The position numbers were made by a program, and so were the translations under genes. The notes under the pieces were generated by a model. That model was given only the letters and a program-made list of their open reading frames with translations, was not told the DNA's origin and made no database searches. From assembly GCF_024227435.1 (NCBI RefSeq), contig NZ_CP100445.1, positions 1,299,369 through 1,363,368 of the forward strand: a DNA stretch of 64,000 nucleotides. Reading direction: 5' to 3'. This stretch comes from Natrinema caseinilyticum (lineage in GTDB: Archaea > Halobacteriota > Halobacteria > Halobacteriales > Natrialbaceae). Shown here one piece after another: positions 12,955-22,663 of the stretch (position 1 is its first letter; the number at the start of each line of letters is the position of its first letter).

Positions 12955-14010
12955 TTACGGGAGCGGAATCCACGCGGCACCCGGAAGCACACCGACCAGC
13001 GCAAGGACGCCGATGACGAGCGACGTCCCCACGATGCTCGCCGCGGGCGGGTCGAAGTGAGTGTCCGCGTGAGCGTAGAAGATTCGTTGTGCAACTTCTC
13101 CGAGAAGGGCCCCAACACCACCGAACACGGCACCTAACAGCAGTACCTCTCCGAGCGGAATTGCTCCAGTGACGATCGCGGGTGTCAGTGAATCGAGCGG
13201 TGCGTCGACGCTCGCCAGCACCGCGGTGCTGGCGGGTAACGACATGTGGTGCGTCACGGGTATTTCGGGAACGCCCGCGTTCACGAACGCCAGTGCGACC
13301 ACGCTGATGCCGAACGCGAGGAAGGCGCTCCCGGTTACGTACGCGATATAGCCGCCGAGAACCCCGACGACGGTGCCGAGCATCACCACGTGGCTCCAGC
13401 GATATTGATACGGTAACCACGGCTCGACCGAACGCCCACCGTCGGTCCGGGCGACCTCGCCCGGTTCGCTACGCCGCGTGCGCTCGAACGGAGACATATC
13501 GAACAACTGGCGCGGCGCGGCACCGATGAAACTGTAGCCGAACACTCCTCGGTGGACGAGAGCCGAACCCACGACGCCCAGTGCAACGGGATCGAGCGGA
13601 AGGCTGAGCGCCGCCGAAAGCGTCGCGATCCAGTACCCGACGACGCCGAAGAGTCCACCGACGGCCAGCACGTCCGGTTTGCTACCGAGACCACGCGTCA
13701 CCTCCTTCGCCGGGTGGTACTCGAAGTCGGAGTCGAGAGACCCCTTCTTCGCGGCGTACGCAACGGCGGCGGCACCGCCTCCGAACGCGACGTGTGGCCC
13801 GAGAACCACGCCAAAGGCGATCGACCCCGTGATGTCCATGGAAGCGACTGCGAATTCGCTCGAGCGAGACAGCAGTTTGTAGAGTTCGCCGACGATGACC
13901 ATCAGGCCCGCGAGCGTAAACGAGGGGAGTGCCCCGACTGCGGCCCCGAACGCGCCGCCAGCGAATGCGGCGACGACCATCTCGATGGCCCAGAGTTCCG
14001 AAACGCTCAT
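12955..14010 (-). CDS. Polytopic membrane protein in ars operon
   Basis: This 351-residue protein has roughly eight to ten hydrophobic segments rich in Gly and Ala (for example GGAFGAAVGALPSFTLAG and IPLGEVLLLGAVFGGVGALL), with one hydrophilic loop near residues 165-200. I do not recognise the family. It lacks the features I would expect of ArsB, ACR3 or the ArsP permease. It lies 8 bases after arsC in an operon that has no other transporter, so an arsenic or arsenical transport role is a reasonable inference but unproven. Its C-terminus FDPPAASIVGTSLVIGVLAL is conserved-looking and proline-marked. Confidence 0.8.
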   Translation of the reverse strand: MSVSELWAIEMVVAAFAGGAFGAAVGALPSFTLAGLMVIVGELYKLLSRSSEFAVASMDITGSIAFGVVLGPHVAFGGGAAAVAYAAKKGSLDSDFEYHPAKEVTRGLGSKPDVLAVGGLFGVVGYWIATLSAALSLPLDPVALGVVGSALVHRGVFGYSFIGAAPRQLFDMSPFERTRRSEPGEVARTDGGRSVEPWLPYQYRWSHVVMLGTVVGVLGGYIAYVTGSAFLAFGISVVALAFVNAGVPEIPVTHHMSLPASTAVLASVDAPLDSLTPAIVTGAIPLGEVLLLGAVFGGVGALLGEVAQRIFYAHADTHFDPPAASIVGTSLVIGVLALVGVLPGAAWIPLP

Positions 14011-14018
14011 CTGATCAG

Positions 14019-14477
14019 CTACTCACTTCGTTCGGTCAACGTCTCGGTGAGTTCGTCGAACAGTTCCGAGACGTTCTCCTCGATACCGTCCCGTATCTCC
14101 CGTACTACCTCGAGGCTCCGGCCGTGCGGGTCCTCGAGCGCCCAGTCGCGGGCGTCTCCCCGCCACGTCATCGGACAGACGTTCTCCGCGGAACAGCCCA
14201 TCGTGACGACGATGTCCGCGTCCGTCGTCTCATCGTGGGTAATCGCCTCCGGACGCTCGTCCTCGAGAGAGATACCGATCTCCGACATCACCTCGACGAC
14301 GACGTCGTGGACCCGGTCTGCGGGTTCCGTTCCTCCACTGATGACGTGGACCCGATCTTCGAGTCCCCGTCGGACTCGCTCGCGTTCGGCGAATGCGGTC
14401 GCCATCTGACTGCGGCCCGCGTTCTGTACGCAGACGAACGCAACCGTGACCGCGTCGTCTTCGGTCGGCTGACTCAT
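14019..14477 (-). CDS. arsC: Arsenate reductase, low-MW phosphatase type
   Basis: This 152-residue protein has the low-molecular-weight phosphatase P-loop VCVQNAGRSQMA (CX5R) near residues 16-23, and two further cysteines in MGCSAENVCP near 94-101. This is the cysteine-relay layout of thioredoxin-linked arsenate reductases, which reduce As(V) to As(III) in the cytosol. The C-terminal RDWALEDPHGRS segment is also family-typical. The start at 14477 overlaps the arsM stop by four bases, so it is translationally coupled within the ars operon. Confidence 0.92.
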   Translation of the reverse strand: MSQPTEDDAVTVAFVCVQNAGRSQMATAFAERERVRRGLEDRVHVISGGTEPADRVHDVVVEVMSEIGISLEDERPEAITHDETTDADIVVTMGCSAENVCPMTWRGDARDWALEDPHGRSLEVVREIRDGIEENVSELFDELTETLTERSE

Positions 14478-15322
14478 TCGATTTCATCCCGTTCCGGCTT
14501 GCGGCCAGTAATCGCCGCAGAGACGATGAATTCGTCGAGATCGATGCTCTCGTCCCATTCGCGAATGAACTCCTCGCTCTCTTCTTTCGGTGTGATTCCG
14601 ACGTCGTGGAAGCCGGCATCGACCAGCATCTCTCGCAGTGCGTCGACGGTCGACGCACCACTCACACAGGCGGCCACCGACTCCGGATCTGCTCGAATCT
14701 CGTCCGGAACGGGGGCCGTCATCACGACGTCCGAGACAGCCAGGCGTCCTCCCGGGCGAAGCGCCCGATACGCGTCGCGGAATACCTGCGCTTTGTTCGG
14801 CGAGAGGTTGATGACGCAGTTCGAGATGACGACGTCGATCGTTTCGTCCGAGACGGGGAGGTGTTCGATTTCGCCGAGGCGGAACTCGACGTTCGTCGCG
14901 TCGTTCTTCACGACGTTCTCTCGTGCTTTATCTACCATCTCGGGGGTCATATCGACGCCGATCACCCGTCCCGACTCGCCCACCTCGCGGGCCGCGAGGA
15001 AACAATCGAATCCAGCCCCCGACCCGAGGTCGAGGACCGTTTCACCATCGTCGAGTGACGCGATAGCCGTCGGGTTCCCGCACCCGAGCCCCAAGTCGGC
15101 ACCCTCCTCCACCGCGTTCAGATCAGCGTCTTCGTAGCCGAGTTTCTGGGACCCTGATTCAGCAGTGTCATCGTCACAGCAACTACCCGAGTCGGTGCCA
15201 CAGTCCGCGTTCGCTCCGGATGCGGTGGCGATTCGAGCGTACCGATTGCGAACGGCACGTCGCTGTTCTGCGGCGTCGAGGTTTCCGCGTTCGTCGGCTG
15301 ATGCCGTCGATTCCTCACTCAT
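14474..15322 (-). CDS. arsM: Arsenite S-adenosylmethionine methyltransferase
   Basis: This 282-residue class I SAM methyltransferase has motif I VLDLGSGAGFDCF, post-I GRVIGVDMTPEM and the GGRLAVSDVV strand. Cysteines that could bind As(III) occur near the N-terminus (TDSGSCCDDD), in ISNCVINLS and in VAACVSGAS, as in ArsM. It would methylate arsenite to volatile or effluxed methylarsenicals. The ATG at 15322 is preferred over the GTG one codon upstream. It overlaps both the arsC fragment before it and arsC after it. Confidence 0.92.
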   Translation of the reverse strand: MSEESTASADERGNLDAAEQRRAVRNRYARIATASGANADCGTDSGSCCDDDTAESGSQKLGYEDADLNAVEEGADLGLGCGNPTAIASLDDGETVLDLGSGAGFDCFLAAREVGESGRVIGVDMTPEMVDKARENVVKNDATNVEFRLGEIEHLPVSDETIDVVISNCVINLSPNKAQVFRDAYRALRPGGRLAVSDVVMTAPVPDEIRADPESVAACVSGASTVDALREMLVDAGFHDVGITPKEESEEFIREWDESIDLDEFIVSAAITGRKPERDEIE

Positions 15323-15464
15323 CACGATTCGCCTCTATTTCATCGAATAGCTCCGTGATTTCGTCCCGGATCTCCCTGACACGGTCGATGTCTCGTCCGC
15401 TCGGGTCGTCGAGTGCCCAATCACGAACCTCCACGCCCGCAAACGTGTCCGAATTGTCGATCAT
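15315..15464 (-). pseudogene. ArsC C-terminal fragment
   Basis: A 49-residue frame starts MIDNSDTFAGVEVRDWALDD and continues GRDIDRVREIRDEITELFDE. This corresponds to the last third of the complete ArsC in the same operon (RDWALEDPHGRSLEVVREIRDG) but lacks the catalytic P-loop. It keeps a start codon overlapping the arsR stop (ATGA) and ends inside the arsM start region. Either it is a truncated arsC duplicate or a retained coupling peptide. It cannot be an active reductase. Confidence 0.8.
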
Positions 15465-15865
15465 TTTTGGTTAGTATCTCCTCGTGAGACGTCGAGCGCT
15501 TCAACCAGTTGATCGGCACTCTCGGTCGTTCGGTAGTATCGCCACGTTCCCTCCTTTCGCCGGGTCAAGAGCCCGGCGTCGGCAAGATCAGAGAGCGCGT
15601 GACTGACGGCGCTCTCGCTTACGTCGAACACCGGTGTGATTTCGCACACACAGAGTTCGTCTTCAGCGGCGGCGAGGAGCCGAACGATCCGATAGCGAGT
15701 CTCGTTTCCGAGGGCCTTCAGCGCGGCTAGGTCCCGCTCGTAATCCTCCGGAATCGCCGCCGTGAGGGAGACGAGGTCGTTCAATCTCGCCTCGACGTCC
15801 GCGTCACAGCAGTCGCCGACATCGTCTTCGATATAGCGCCGGAGCCTGGTCGTGTCTCGAGTCAC
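15461..15865 (-). CDS. arsR: ArsR-family arsenic-responsive repressor
   Basis: This 134-residue winged-helix protein has ELCVCEI near residues 71-77, the As(III)-sensing CxC on the ArsR recognition helix region, followed by FDVSESAVSHALSDLADAGL (DNA recognition helix) and a GTWRYYRT wing. An N-terminal GDCCDAD pair of cysteines may add a third thiol ligand. The start is a GTG at 15865; no upstream ATG is in frame before a stop. It heads the ars operon and probably represses it. Confidence 0.92.
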   Translation of the reverse strand: MTRDTTRLRRYIEDDVGDCCDADVEARLNDLVSLTAAIPEDYERDLAALKALGNETRYRIVRLLAAAEDELCVCEITPVFDVSESAVSHALSDLADAGLLTRRKEGTWRYYRTTESADQLVEALDVSRGDTNQK

Positions 15866-15888
15866 GCTTGATTAATTGAACAACTCCT

Positions 15889-15896
15889 CATATATC
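15889..15896 (-). promoter_or_regulatory. ars operon TATA element
   Basis: On the minus strand the sequence ATATATGAGG lies about 26 bases before the arsR GTG, the distance expected for a leaderless transcript. The AT-rich TTGTTCAATTAATCAA segment between it and the start codon is a candidate ArsR-binding site. Confidence 0.55.
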
Positions 15897-16447: not shown

Positions 16448-16696
16448 TTAGGCGTCCGTCGAGAGTCTGTCGTCGACCGACGAGACGATGACCTCGAGGT
16501 CCAATTCGATGCCGTGAACGGCTCTGTCCCAGATCGTCTCACCGTCGGCAGTGACGGTGAACACCCCGCCATGGCTCGGAGCGAGCGTCACACCCTCTAA
16601 CTCCTGTCCGAATTCGTCGAGGAGTCGGGTCTGGGTCTCGATCGCTGGATCGAGCAGTCCACAGGGAACACAGTATTCGATTTCGACTGTTGTCAC
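16448..16696 (-). CDS. SelT/SelW/SelH (Rdx) family protein
   Basis: This 82-residue protein starts MTTVEIEYCVPCGLLDPA, carrying the CxxC redox motif of the Rdx family right after the first strand, as in SelW. The GGVFTVTADGETIWDR segment matches the family's second half. It is a cysteine version, not a selenoprotein. These thioredoxin-fold proteins are thought to take part in thiol redox, but the substrate is unknown. It stands alone between non-coding stretches. Confidence 0.9.
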   Translation of the reverse strand: MTTVEIEYCVPCGLLDPAIETQTRLLDEFGQELEGVTLAPSHGGVFTVTADGETIWDRAVHGIELDLEVIVSSVDDRLSTDA

Positions 16697-16816
16697 GTCT
16701 CTCTCGTGGACTCATGTCGCCATAAGGCTAGGACAAGGGTTCACTGAGCAGGTTACCGAGACCTAACCTATCGCTCATCGATTGGCGTTGTGCGAGACTC
16801 CGCCGGCGAGGGAAAC

Positions 16817-17224
16817 CTAACCGAGTATCTGTCCGGCAAACTGCCGGAGGGAATCGGGGTCACGTTCCACGATCAGAACCGCGAGAGCACCGATCAATAC
16901 GCCGAGGTTCTTCCAATCCGGGCCGACGTACACTATCGCGACGAGCATCACTGGGACGAGCGAGACGGCAGCGAGTCGCTCTTTAACTCCGACGAGGAGG
17001 AGCACGACCGCGCCCACTTCGACGATTCCTGCAACGACGACCATGACCGTCGGCGCAGGTATCCCGTACGCATCGAAGAAGGCAACCGAACTTCCGTACG
17101 TGAGGAATTTGCTCAGGGCTGGTCTCGCAACGAGTGCGGCGAGGAGGAGACGAAGGCAGACGAGGACCCAGCCCGGAATCGACCGGCGAATCGTCTGCAC
17201 GCGATCCGTATATGTGTCGTCCAT
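16817..17224 (-). CDS. DoxX family membrane protein
   Basis: This 135-residue protein has four predicted membrane helices (IPGWVLVCLRLLLAALVA, VMVVVAGIVEVGAVVLLLVG, AVSLVPVMLVAIVYVG, GVLIGALAVLIV) and the early RPALSKF segment characteristic of DoxX. DoxX proteins are associated with redox reactions such as quinone or thiol metabolism. It is divergent from an HxlR regulator across 153 bases, a common regulator-target arrangement. Confidence 0.87.
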   Translation of the reverse strand: MDDTYTDRVQTIRRSIPGWVLVCLRLLLAALVARPALSKFLTYGSSVAFFDAYGIPAPTVMVVVAGIVEVGAVVLLLVGVKERLAAVSLVPVMLVAIVYVGPDWKNLGVLIGALAVLIVERDPDSLRQFAGQILG

Positions 17225-17377: not shown

Positions 17378-17746
17378 ATGAGTAACGAAGTCGAAAAAAC
17401 GTGTGTCGCGTCGTGGTGTGCCGACGACGACTGGTGTTCAGTAACGTGTACGGCCCATCTTATCGGGAAGAAATGGCATCCAGTCATCGTCCATCGATTG
17501 CTCGAACGAGGTCCGCTCGGGTTCAACGCACTCAAGGCCGAAATCGACGACATCTCCGCCACCGTACTCTCGAGCAGTCTGGAGGATTTATCGGAGAACG
17601 GGCTCGTGAATCGCGCGATCGTGAGCGAAAAACCGTTCCGAGTCGAGTATTCGTTGACCGAACACGGAGCCTCGCTGGAGCCGGTGATCGAAGCGATGGA
17701 CGAATGGGGCAACGGGTATCTTCGGGAAACATCGTCCCGTGACTAA
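17378..17746 (+). CDS. HxlR-family transcriptional regulator
   Basis: This 122-residue protein has the HxlR winged helix (IGKKWHPVIVHRLLERGPLG, LSSSLEDLSENGLV, then PFRVEYSLTEHG). The N-terminal 26 residues contain four cysteines (CVASWCADDDWCSVTC), an unusual cluster that could sense thiol oxidation or bind metal; typical HxlR proteins have one conserved cysteine there. It probably controls the divergent doxX gene and itself. Confidence 0.9.
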   Translation: MSNEVEKTCVASWCADDDWCSVTCTAHLIGKKWHPVIVHRLLERGPLGFNALKAEIDDISATVLSSSLEDLSENGLVNRAIVSEKPFRVEYSLTEHGASLEPVIEAMDEWGNGYLRETSSRD

Positions 17747-20784: not shown

Positions 20785-21183
20785 CTAAACGTGTTCCGTT
20801 CGCTCGATATACTGTTCAATCGTGTCGGTCGAAACATCGCCTGCTGTCCCCACATAGTACGATTCCTCCCAGAATCCACCGCCCCACAAGTAGTCCTCCA
20901 AGAACGGTTCGTGCTGGTTCCAGATTTCCCGTGCCGTGATGCTCTTGACGGTTCGTACAATCTTGCTCGGTGCGTGCTTCGGGTGGGCAGAGACGAATAG
21001 GTGTACGTGGTCGGGAGAACTGTGGAGCGACAGTATCTCGTACCCGTACTCGTCGCACACGTTGCGGACACCCTCCTCCAGAGATTCCTCGATTGGTTCG
21101 AGTATCACGTGGCGGTACTTCGGACACCACACGAAATGGTAGTTGACGTTGTATACCGTATCGTTCGACCGCTTCTCCCCCAT
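20785..21183 (-). CDS. tnpA: IS200/IS605 TnpA transposase (Y1, HUH)
   Basis: This 132-residue single-strand transposase has the HUH metal-binding motif in PDHVHLFVSA near residue 60 and the catalytic tyrosine in WEESYYVGTAG near 108-110. It starts MGEKRSNDTVYNVNYHFVW, the usual length and N-terminus. It would cut and join the hairpin-marked ends of its element on single-stranded DNA. The protein appears intact. Confidence 0.95.
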   Translation of the reverse strand: MGEKRSNDTVYNVNYHFVWCPKYRHVILEPIEESLEEGVRNVCDEYGYEILSLHSSPDHVHLFVSAHPKHAPSKIVRTVKSITAREIWNQHEPFLEDYLWGGGFWEESYYVGTAGDVSTDTIEQYIERTEHV

Positions 21184-21236
21184 ATCGAACCCACACCACC
21201 AACACAGTTAAGTATATACAAAATATATACACAGGT
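21184..21236. promoter_or_regulatory. Divergent tnpA/tnpB promoter region
   Basis: This 53-base gap contains the AT-rich AGTATATACAAAATATATAC, which offers TATA elements in both directions between the tnpA start and the DUF2080 start. Spacing to both start codons suits leaderless transcripts. Confidence 0.6.
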
Positions 21237-21392
21237 ATGGTGAATCGCTTTGAAATCGACGGCGAGGAAGTTCTCGACGGCGAGGTCAAACCATTCGGGA
21301 ACAGTGCCCACGTCACCGTCCCCAAACGCTGGCGTGGAGCCGACGTGAAAGTCGTCCGAACCTCAGAACCAACCGAACAAGACGAAGAATGA
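21237..21392 (+). CDS. DUF2080 transposon-encoded protein
   Basis: This 51-residue protein (MVNRFEIDGEEVLDGEVKPF, then GNSAHVTVPKRWRG) is the small DUF2080 protein often found just upstream of tnpB in haloarchaeal IS605/IS1341 elements. The VKPFGNSAHVTVPK segment resembles an AbrB-like swapped-hairpin DNA-binding fold. Its stop overlaps the tnpB start (ATGA). Its role in transposition is not known. Confidence 0.88.
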   Translation: MVNRFEIDGEEVLDGEVKPFGNSAHVTVPKRWRGADVKVVRTSEPTEQDEE

Positions 21393-22663
21393 CCGACGAA
21401 CAGGCTCTCGTCAAGACGCTTGACTTCCAACTCAACATCCAGAGTGACAACGAGGGCCTGCTGTACGACGCTACACTCGAAGCCCGCGAGGTGTACAACG
21501 AAACCATCCGTCTCGCCAAAGGTGGCGTGGACTGGGACGCAATTCCCGACCGCGTGGCCGATGACGCCAACCTCGTGAAGAACACGACTCAGCGCGTCGG
21601 TGCGAAGGCACTCAGTGCGATGGAGAACTACTACGAGTACGACGACTTCGGACTTCCGAGTCACACTAAGGACGGTGCGTACCCGCTTCGTGCGAACTAC
21701 GAGGAAGGATACAATTTGTCTCTCACCGACAACGGCGACGTAGCGTTCCGTATCAGCGCGAAACCCTACAAGCACGTTAAGGGCGTCCTCGACGGGAGTG
21801 ACGCCCACCTCGACATTCTCAAGACTGCCCTCGAAAGTGACGAGTGGAAGATTGGGACGGCAGAAGCCCTGTTCCACGACGACAACCCCGAGTTGCACGT
21901 CAACGTCACCAACACCGAGCAGACCGTTCGAGACAAGCACGACTCACGGACGGTCATCGGCGTGGACGTGAACGAGGACAACGTGGCACTCACCGCCCTC
22001 TCCGAAGATGGCGTCGAGGACACGTTGGTTATCGACTTCCCCGAAATCAAGTTCGAGCGCCACCGCTACTTCACGATGCGAAAGCGCGTGCAGAACGCGG
22101 GGAAAGGCAGTATCCACGACACGCTCGAAGGGCGCGAGGAACGGTTCGTTCGTGACCGACTACACAAGGTGAGCCGTCACATCGTGGAGTGGAGCCGTCA
22201 GTTCGAGAAGCCGTGTATCGTCTTTGAAGACCTCAAAGAGATGCGCGATAGTATCGACTACGGTACGCGGATGAATCGACGTTTGCACCACCTCCCGTTC
22301 CGCGCCCTTCAATACTACACGTCGTACAAGGCGTCGTTTGAGGGCATCCCGACCGCGTGGATTAACCCTGAGTACACCAGCCAGCGGTGTCCAATGTGTG
22401 GACACACGGAGCGAGCGAACCGCAACAAGAAGCGATTCAAGTGTAAAGACTGTGAGCATCAAGACCACAGTGACCGTGGTGCAAGCGTCAATATCGCCGT
22501 GAAAGGTGTGAAGAAACTCGATTGGAATGTGCCTGCTCTCAACAGCCTCCCCGTTGTTCGGAAGGTGCGACGGCAGGCATCGGGGGCCGTGGACGCCCCG
22601 ACCGTGACCCAGCCGACCGTTCGAGGCTATCAGGCCGATGGTCGGATGGGAGTGTCCGACTAA
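21389..22663 (+). CDS. tnpB: TnpB RNA-guided endonuclease
   Basis: This 424-residue protein keeps the complete RuvC-like site: Asp193 in VIGVDVNEDN, Glu280 in IVFEDLKEM and Asp362 in QDHSDRGASVNIA. A zinc ribbon CPMCGHTER...KCKDCEH (Cys334, 337, 352, 355) sits between the last two. TnpB proteins cut DNA guided by an omega RNA derived from the element's right end, favouring retention of the element. The length is normal for the family and no damage is seen. Confidence 0.95.
   Translation: MTDEQALVKTLDFQLNIQSDNEGLLYDATLEAREVYNETIRLAKGGVDWDAIPDRVADDANLVKNTTQRVGAKALSAMENYYEYDDFGLPSHTKDGAYPLRANYEEGYNLSLTDNGDVAFRISAKPYKHVKGVLDGSDAHLDILKTALESDEWKIGTAEALFHDDNPELHVNVTNTEQTVRDKHDSRTVIGVDVNEDNVALTALSEDGVEDTLVIDFPEIKFERHRYFTMRKRVQNAGKGSIHDTLEGREERFVRDRLHKVSRHIVEWSRQFEKPCIVFEDLKEMRDSIDYGTRMNRRLHHLPFRALQYYTSYKASFEGIPTAWINPEYTSQRCPMCGHTERANRNKKRFKCKDCEHQDHSDRGASVNIAVKGVKKLDWNVPALNSLPVVRKVRRQASGAVDAPTVTQPTVRGYQADGRMGVSD

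Follow-up and report, generated by a model that had tools for sequence, protein, structure and literature searches.

A putative arsenite channel outside the aquaporin family in the ars operon of a haloarchaeon

ACR3, ArsB and ArsP serve as membrane partners in ars operons, the last of these being recognizable by a C(S/T)C motif, as given in a 2015 survey of bacterial ars operons (PMC4435449). In the AqpS-type operon of Sinorhizobium meliloti, an aquaglyceroporin of the MIP family takes the place of ArsB, and the arsenite made by ArsC leaves the cell through it downhill; an AqpS-ArsC fusion occurs in Salinispora (PMC6205960, PMC1440775). GlpF lets As(OH)3 into the cell (PMC1440775), and according to the 2015 survey, all 18 MIP genes found in ars operons were without another transporter (PMC4435449). 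Here, we describe an ars operon located in a 64,000-nucleotide stretch of the Natrinema caseinilyticum genome (contig NZ_CP100445.1, positions 1,299,369 to 1,363,368), hereafter the window, whose last gene (12955..14010, minus strand) encodes a 351-aa polytopic membrane protein without a family match. Based on its neighbours, its phylogeny, an internal repeat and a structural model, we propose that this protein is an arsenite channel.

The operon is encoded on the minus strand and includes arsR (15461..15865), for an ArsR/SmtB-family repressor of 134 aa (Pfam HTH_5; NCBIfam HTH_metalloreg, 83.5 bits, cut-off 55), arsM (14474..15325), for an arsenite methyltransferase of 283 aa (NCBIfam NF008823, 351.7 bits, cut-off 263), and arsC (14019..14477), for an arsenate reductase of the low-molecular-weight phosphatase type of 152 aa (Pfam LMWPc; motifs CVQNAGRS and MGCSAENVCP). 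The NCBIfam matches of this ArsC were all ArsC families, each below its own cut-off. Four bases are shared by arsM and arsC, and the membrane protein gene starts 8 bases past arsC. Coordinates and profile matches agree with a preliminary description of this operon, including its claim that none of the four genes encodes an ArsB, ACR3 or ArsP (Pfam and NCBIfam). The 4-base overlaps that it reported stand for arsM and arsC, but not for arsR and arsM, which are 135 bases apart with an arsC remnant in between. The locus thus resembles the AqpS-type operon in having an inferred channel gene together with arsR and arsC and no ArsB or ACR3, but it also contains arsM, and its membrane protein belongs to another family, with no match to the MIP model (PF00230) and no NPA motif in its translation. 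By analogy, the 351-aa protein may work like AqpS while standing outside the AqpS protein family.

No Pfam or NCBIfam family matched the protein at E-values up to 1, and this includes the models that define the known membrane partners of ars operons, namely ACR3 (TIGR00832, which is over its cut-off in 59 of the 100 genomes analysed), ArsB (PF02040, Pfam) and ArsP (PF03773). Unlike ArsP, the protein has no cysteine and hence no C(S/T)C motif; the other ten aligned copies of its branch contain at most one. When 72 members of the family were compared with Pfam at E-values up to 10, scattered weak matches appeared, the best being RTX (E 0.0021, 9 members), and PF00230 was absent among the matches listed (25 of 33 Pfam families). 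Urea transporters (UT) and Amt were absent among the matches listed in that scan (25 of 33 families) and in a search of the PDB with the family profile. A direct sequence match to a solved structure was discarded, as the window protein had none in the PDB and the family profile gave only eight chance-level matches (E 0.4 and worse). What is new here is the protein, which lies outside the arsenic transporter families tested and has no Pfam or NCBIfam model; its way of working is already known from AqpS.

The family was detected in 69 of 100 genomes (the source genome and 99 relatives), and a scan of named genomes contributed 32 loci. Counting distinct protein sequences, there are 102 copies besides that of the window, 95 of them haloarchaeal and 7 from Balneolaceae, with three fragments among the copies (loci L061, L122 and L126); as the window protein was the query, its near relatives are over-represented. 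Outside these 102 stand L157 and L158, with glpK upstream, L159, with neither partner, the pieces L160 and L161 and two plasmid copies, and two duplicate rows were dropped from the neighbour count. In 75 of the 103 copies (the window counted), the gene is preceded on its own strand, at a distance of no more than 300 bp, by the glycerol kinase gene glpK, beyond which gpdA and gpdB are mostly found in divergent orientation. In 8 of these 75, arsR, arsC or acr3 also occurs within 2.5 kb downstream, with the order glpK-channel-arsR-arsC in Haladaptatus litoreus (L038) and glpK-channel-arsR-acr3 in Halorussus aquaticus. Another 12 (the window and 11 others, of which L126 is broken) lack glpK and instead follow an arsC gene of the same orientation. 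Both kinds occur in the source genome, where the ars-linked and the glpK-linked copy are 47% identical, and in Haloferax elongans, again with one copy of each. The family therefore occurs mainly away from ars genes, a distribution that the preliminary description took as arguing against its proposal; given the glpK context, we read it instead as a hint of a glycerol/arsenite channel and not as leading away from arsenic.

The linkage to arsC exceeds chance expectation. After 11 short arsC pieces were dropped, 114 arsC-like hits were counted in the 100 genomes, and 8 of them (including that of the window) have one of the 73 family places at a distance of 3 kb or less, against 0.14 pairs expected by a crude estimate. 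An ACR3-like gene, from a list of hits down to E 1.4e-21 of which some are below the cut-off, is found within 3 kb of 46 of the 114 arsC-like hits, yet none of these hits is close to both an ACR3-like gene and the family, and none of the 8 arsC-channel loci has an ACR3-like gene within 3 kb. Like the MIP genes of the 2015 survey, then, the family at these loci is without an accompanying pump, which here refers to ACR3 only. The source genome has no match to the ACR3, ArsB or MIP models, and its three PF03773-type (ArsP_1) permeases are all encoded outside the operon; ACR3 is over its cut-off in 21 of 28 congeners. Among the 100 genomes, 88 (the source included) are without a MIP match, as are 64 of the 69 with the family. 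Haloferax volcanii, one of 14 control genomes, is not among the 8 with a MIP match.

A careful tree was built from 51 of the 103 copies, without the fragment L126, a number of long branches and many of the congeners. In it, the 11 full-length ars-linked copies (the window included) form one side of a branch with support values of 90/97, and the ars trait requires a single change in 87% of the bootstrap trees. A quick tree of 74 rows, omitting two fragments, two duplicates and 27 close congeners, agrees on the ars branch (support 82). This branch spans several haloarchaeal families. Although the tree is unrooted, an order from glycerol to arsenic is the likelier one. The suggestion that the protein is a new transporter type is supported in part, by an unnamed family that has a fixed arsC partner in one clade and matches no known arsenic-transporter model, the family as a whole mainly adjoining glpK.

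Considering these data, we favour as rather likely the interpretation that the 351-aa protein represents the ars branch of a non-aquaporin channel family and allows the passive exit of As(OH)3, while the glpK branch is a glycerol facilitator. The glpK branch is read in this way because it regularly adjoins the gene for the glycerol-trapping enzyme and because MIP is missing in most genomes; it would work with glycerol kinase as GlpF does in Escherichia coli, although GlpF is a MIP protein and the 351-aa protein does not match the MIP model. The ars branch is, in turn, most likely a passive channel because As(OH)3 mimics glycerol, because GlpF and AqpS conduct it, and because ACR3 is absent from the 8 arsC loci. 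ArsR would control the promoter in front of arsR, and ArsC would convert arsenate into arsenite. As(OH)3, which is neutral and resembles glycerol, would then pass out through the channel, driven by its own gradient and needing no pump powered by ATP or ions. Methylation by ArsM would offer a second route in the source genome. Transport itself, its substrate, passive mode and direction, as well as the fold relationship discussed below, are what we infer.

The anatomy of the protein is consistent with a channel. Residues 72-153 align with residues 254-333 (score 43.2, E 2e-6; 36.8, E 3e-5 in the reverse order), whereas 60 column shuffles never scored above 18.2 and reversed halves gave 13.8 and 10.6. 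Judging from its sequence, the protein is an internal duplication with two related halves. The paired motifs PH..F / THH..LPA and DP.A / DPPA each open a helix in the structural model. Residues in which the ars branch differs from the glpK branch include Y44, A245, S325 and T329. UT and Amt share a two-halved channel plan. AlphaFold2 models were obtained for the window protein (predicted local distance difference test score, pLDDT, 94.3; predicted template modelling score, pTM, 0.93) and for the glpK-linked paralogue (pLDDT 94.2, pTM 0.92), and both show the same order of helices; the alignment of the first model included 72 of the 103 copies, and the two models, sharing most of their alignment, are not independent. 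The preliminary description had proposed a comparison of predicted structures, and in VIA-align 2, the top 8 rows for the window protein and the top 11 for the paralogue were all urea transporters (Z 7.1-7.6 and 6.8-7.7, respectively; 178-199 residues aligned, root-mean-square deviation 4.5-5.3), where a Z below 8 denotes, for this tool, a possible common arrangement and falls short of certainty. These were followed by 14 and 12 rows of Amt/Rh with Z from 5.5 to 4.6, barely above the highest-ranking unrelated structures (Z 4.7 and 4.6). The highest structural matches of both models are therefore to UT/SLC14 and then Amt/Rh, but with no sequence match listed for either, and such Z-scores are no proof of kinship. 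The MIP fold was absent among the matches listed by VIA-align, a listing that cannot exclude it. On these models, the protein probably has a UT/Amt-like channel fold rather than an aquaporin fold, which we consider a good lead that falls short of proof.

Several observations weigh against a passive arsenite channel. Z-scores of 7 to 8 can be reached by models without kinship, and Foldseek by itself gave no significant match, its best (E 0.044) not being a urea transporter; the Foldseek matches, mostly transporters of the major facilitator superfamily with E 0.044 and worse and TM-scores of about 0.2, were judged meaningless. That the glpK-linked branch is the haloarchaeal glycerol uptake facilitator is probable, but this assignment derives from gene context alone. 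Neither glpK nor arsC is found within the limits used in the 7 Balneolaceae copies and 9 others. A genome-level exclusion of ACR3 was considered and rejected, since ACR3 is encoded elsewhere, at scores over its cut-off, in 4 of the 8 genomes with an arsC-channel pair (Fisher p 0.71). An extra gene separates the channel from arsR at L104, and the arsRC genes of L038 are probably a transcription unit of their own with their own promoter, because the promoter-like motif described below sits between channel and arsR. Finally, the charged and histidine residues conserved in the family (E42, K102, R154, H254, H255, E305, R309, H314, H318 and D320) could serve ion coupling.

This last point bears on the alternative that survives best, although we consider it unlikely: that the protein is an active arsenite exporter, a H+- or Na+-coupled secondary carrier of a new family that is functionally like ACR3 and ArsB. 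Ion coupling by the conserved residues would suit such a carrier, as would the presence of the family at arsC loci without ACR3 (8 as compared with 46 of 114, none with both). However, the nearest branch is linked to glycerol kinase, and the usual scheme there is facilitated entry followed by phosphorylation (PMC11962113); the fold comparison, too, favours channels, if weakly. Somewhat less probable still is a glycerol uptake protein, or a channel for another solute, that was duplicated beside ars genes and has no role in arsenic handling. The predominance of glpK-linked copies would fit this explanation, as would those copies that adjoin a TrmB-type regulator or have neither partner, but the linkage to arsC has been kept through the whole branch, across several haloarchaeal families, and genes overlap by 4 bp in three Halosimplex ars loci and in L063. 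Export of methylated arsenicals made by ArsM, which the preliminary description had allowed, is very improbable: the protein does share an operon with arsM in the window and in L063, where it directly follows arsM, but the other 10 of the 12 ars-linked copies have arsC and no arsM hit within 2.5 kb, so methylarsenite is unlikely as the shared substrate and inorganic arsenite is the likelier one, and methylarsenite was not conducted by GlpF or Fps1p, though it was by AQP9 (PMC1440775).

If the passive arsenite channel is correct, an ars operon would hold a channel for arsenite that is not a MIP protein, the AqpS solution having been re-invented from a different fold, and this second, independent case of a channel of the glycerol type among ars genes would document repeated use of the mimicry between As(OH)3 and glycerol. 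We give even chances to the broader proposal that a new solute channel family, unrelated to aquaporins by sequence, is the main glycerol facilitator of haloarchaea and gave rise once to a dedicated arsenite channel. For Halobacterium NRC-1, a transporter unrelated to ArsB has been proposed (PMC3600143), and the present family opens to testing the question of an arsenite transporter in haloarchaea that does not rely on ArsB. In the open-access literature on haloarchaeal arsenite transport, we found no description of the family. The open-access literature likewise yielded no description of the glpK-linked protein, the subscription literature lying mostly outside this scope, so that we do not claim it to be unnamed in print; the H. 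volcanii papers examined gave nothing on it. A 2011 paper in the Journal of Bacteriology reportedly describes a gene next to glpK in H. volcanii as that of a putative facilitator.

Upstream of arsR, at 15869..15892 on the minus strand, we identified a TATA-like box with the imperfect palindrome TATGANNNNTTGTTCANNNANTCA, a candidate promoter and ArsR operator that occupies an equal position in 7 arsR upstream regions. Compared by eye, 5 of these 7 regions contain the exact core TATGANNNNTTGTTCA, and L031 and L033 each differ from it at one position; the element TATGANNNNTTGTTCANNNANTCA is also present in L032 and precedes arsR in L038. Allowing up to 2 mismatches, this is its sole match, both in the window and genome-wide, and a control with the reversed pattern gave 0 matches.

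The 135-base gap between arsR and arsM is bridged by an open frame of 49 codons (15318..15464, minus strand), sharing 4 bases with the arsR stop and extending into the start of arsM. Its product is 61% identical to ArsC residues 108-144 (E 5e-6), and we consider it the C-terminal piece of a second arsC. As Haloferax elongans retains two whole arsC genes after arsR, one of two arsC genes was probably lost in the window operon, where the remaining arsC is the only whole arsC match in the genome. The ArsC proteins linked to the channel are of two types, with a third cysteine (MGC....CP) in 4 of 19 rows and with this cysteine absent, or without the motif, in 15; these rows include L031, L033, L035, L048, L056, L063 and others, L042 being a fragment and L034 and L064 an identical protein. 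The whole ArsC of the window has the third cysteine, and the arsC remnant is closer to the type without it.

At some loci, arsC and the channel gene are associated with phosphate uptake genes. In Natronobiforma (L034), they adjoin a locus with pstC, pstS, pstB and phoU. Upstream of them in L065 are pstB and phoU. Phosphate uptake is the route by which arsenate would be expected to enter the cell. L064 likewise has arsC and the channel gene inside or adjoining a pst phosphate-uptake locus.

Among the copies without glpK or arsC nearby are those of Balneolaceae metagenome-assembled genomes (L036, L037, L045, L046, L047, L049 and L061). In L045, an arsM-like gene is convergent at a distance of 0.3 kb, and in L047, an ArsR-family gene lies upstream with another gene between. 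The six Balneolaceae rows of the quick tree form a single clade among the haloarchaeal copies. A wide bacterial spread was rejected, as only 2 of 198 genomes from the phylum of Balneolaceae match, both known from the scan of named genomes, which makes a transfer into halophiles the apparent origin of the bacterial copies. Carriage on plasmids was also set aside, with matches in 2 of 72,556 plasmid records, one annotated as a hypothetical protein and the other unannotated. The Haloarcula copies L053 and L159 adjoin a TrmB-like regulator instead of glpK, that of L053 scoring below the TrmB cut-offs. Degenerate copies include L160 and L161, two C-terminal fragments in Halorussus aquaticus (G105), and L126 (G039), a broken copy of 267 residues beside arsC.

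Further upstream of arsR in the window, genes for an Rdx/SelW-like protein and a DoxX protein (Pfam) are located on the same strand at 16448-17224, followed by an HxlR regulator gene (Pfam) at 17378-17746 on the strand opposite to arsR. The region 20785-22663 contains a divergent pair that we take, from the translations, to be an IS200/IS605-type TnpA (20785-21183, minus strand) and TnpB (21389-22663, plus strand).

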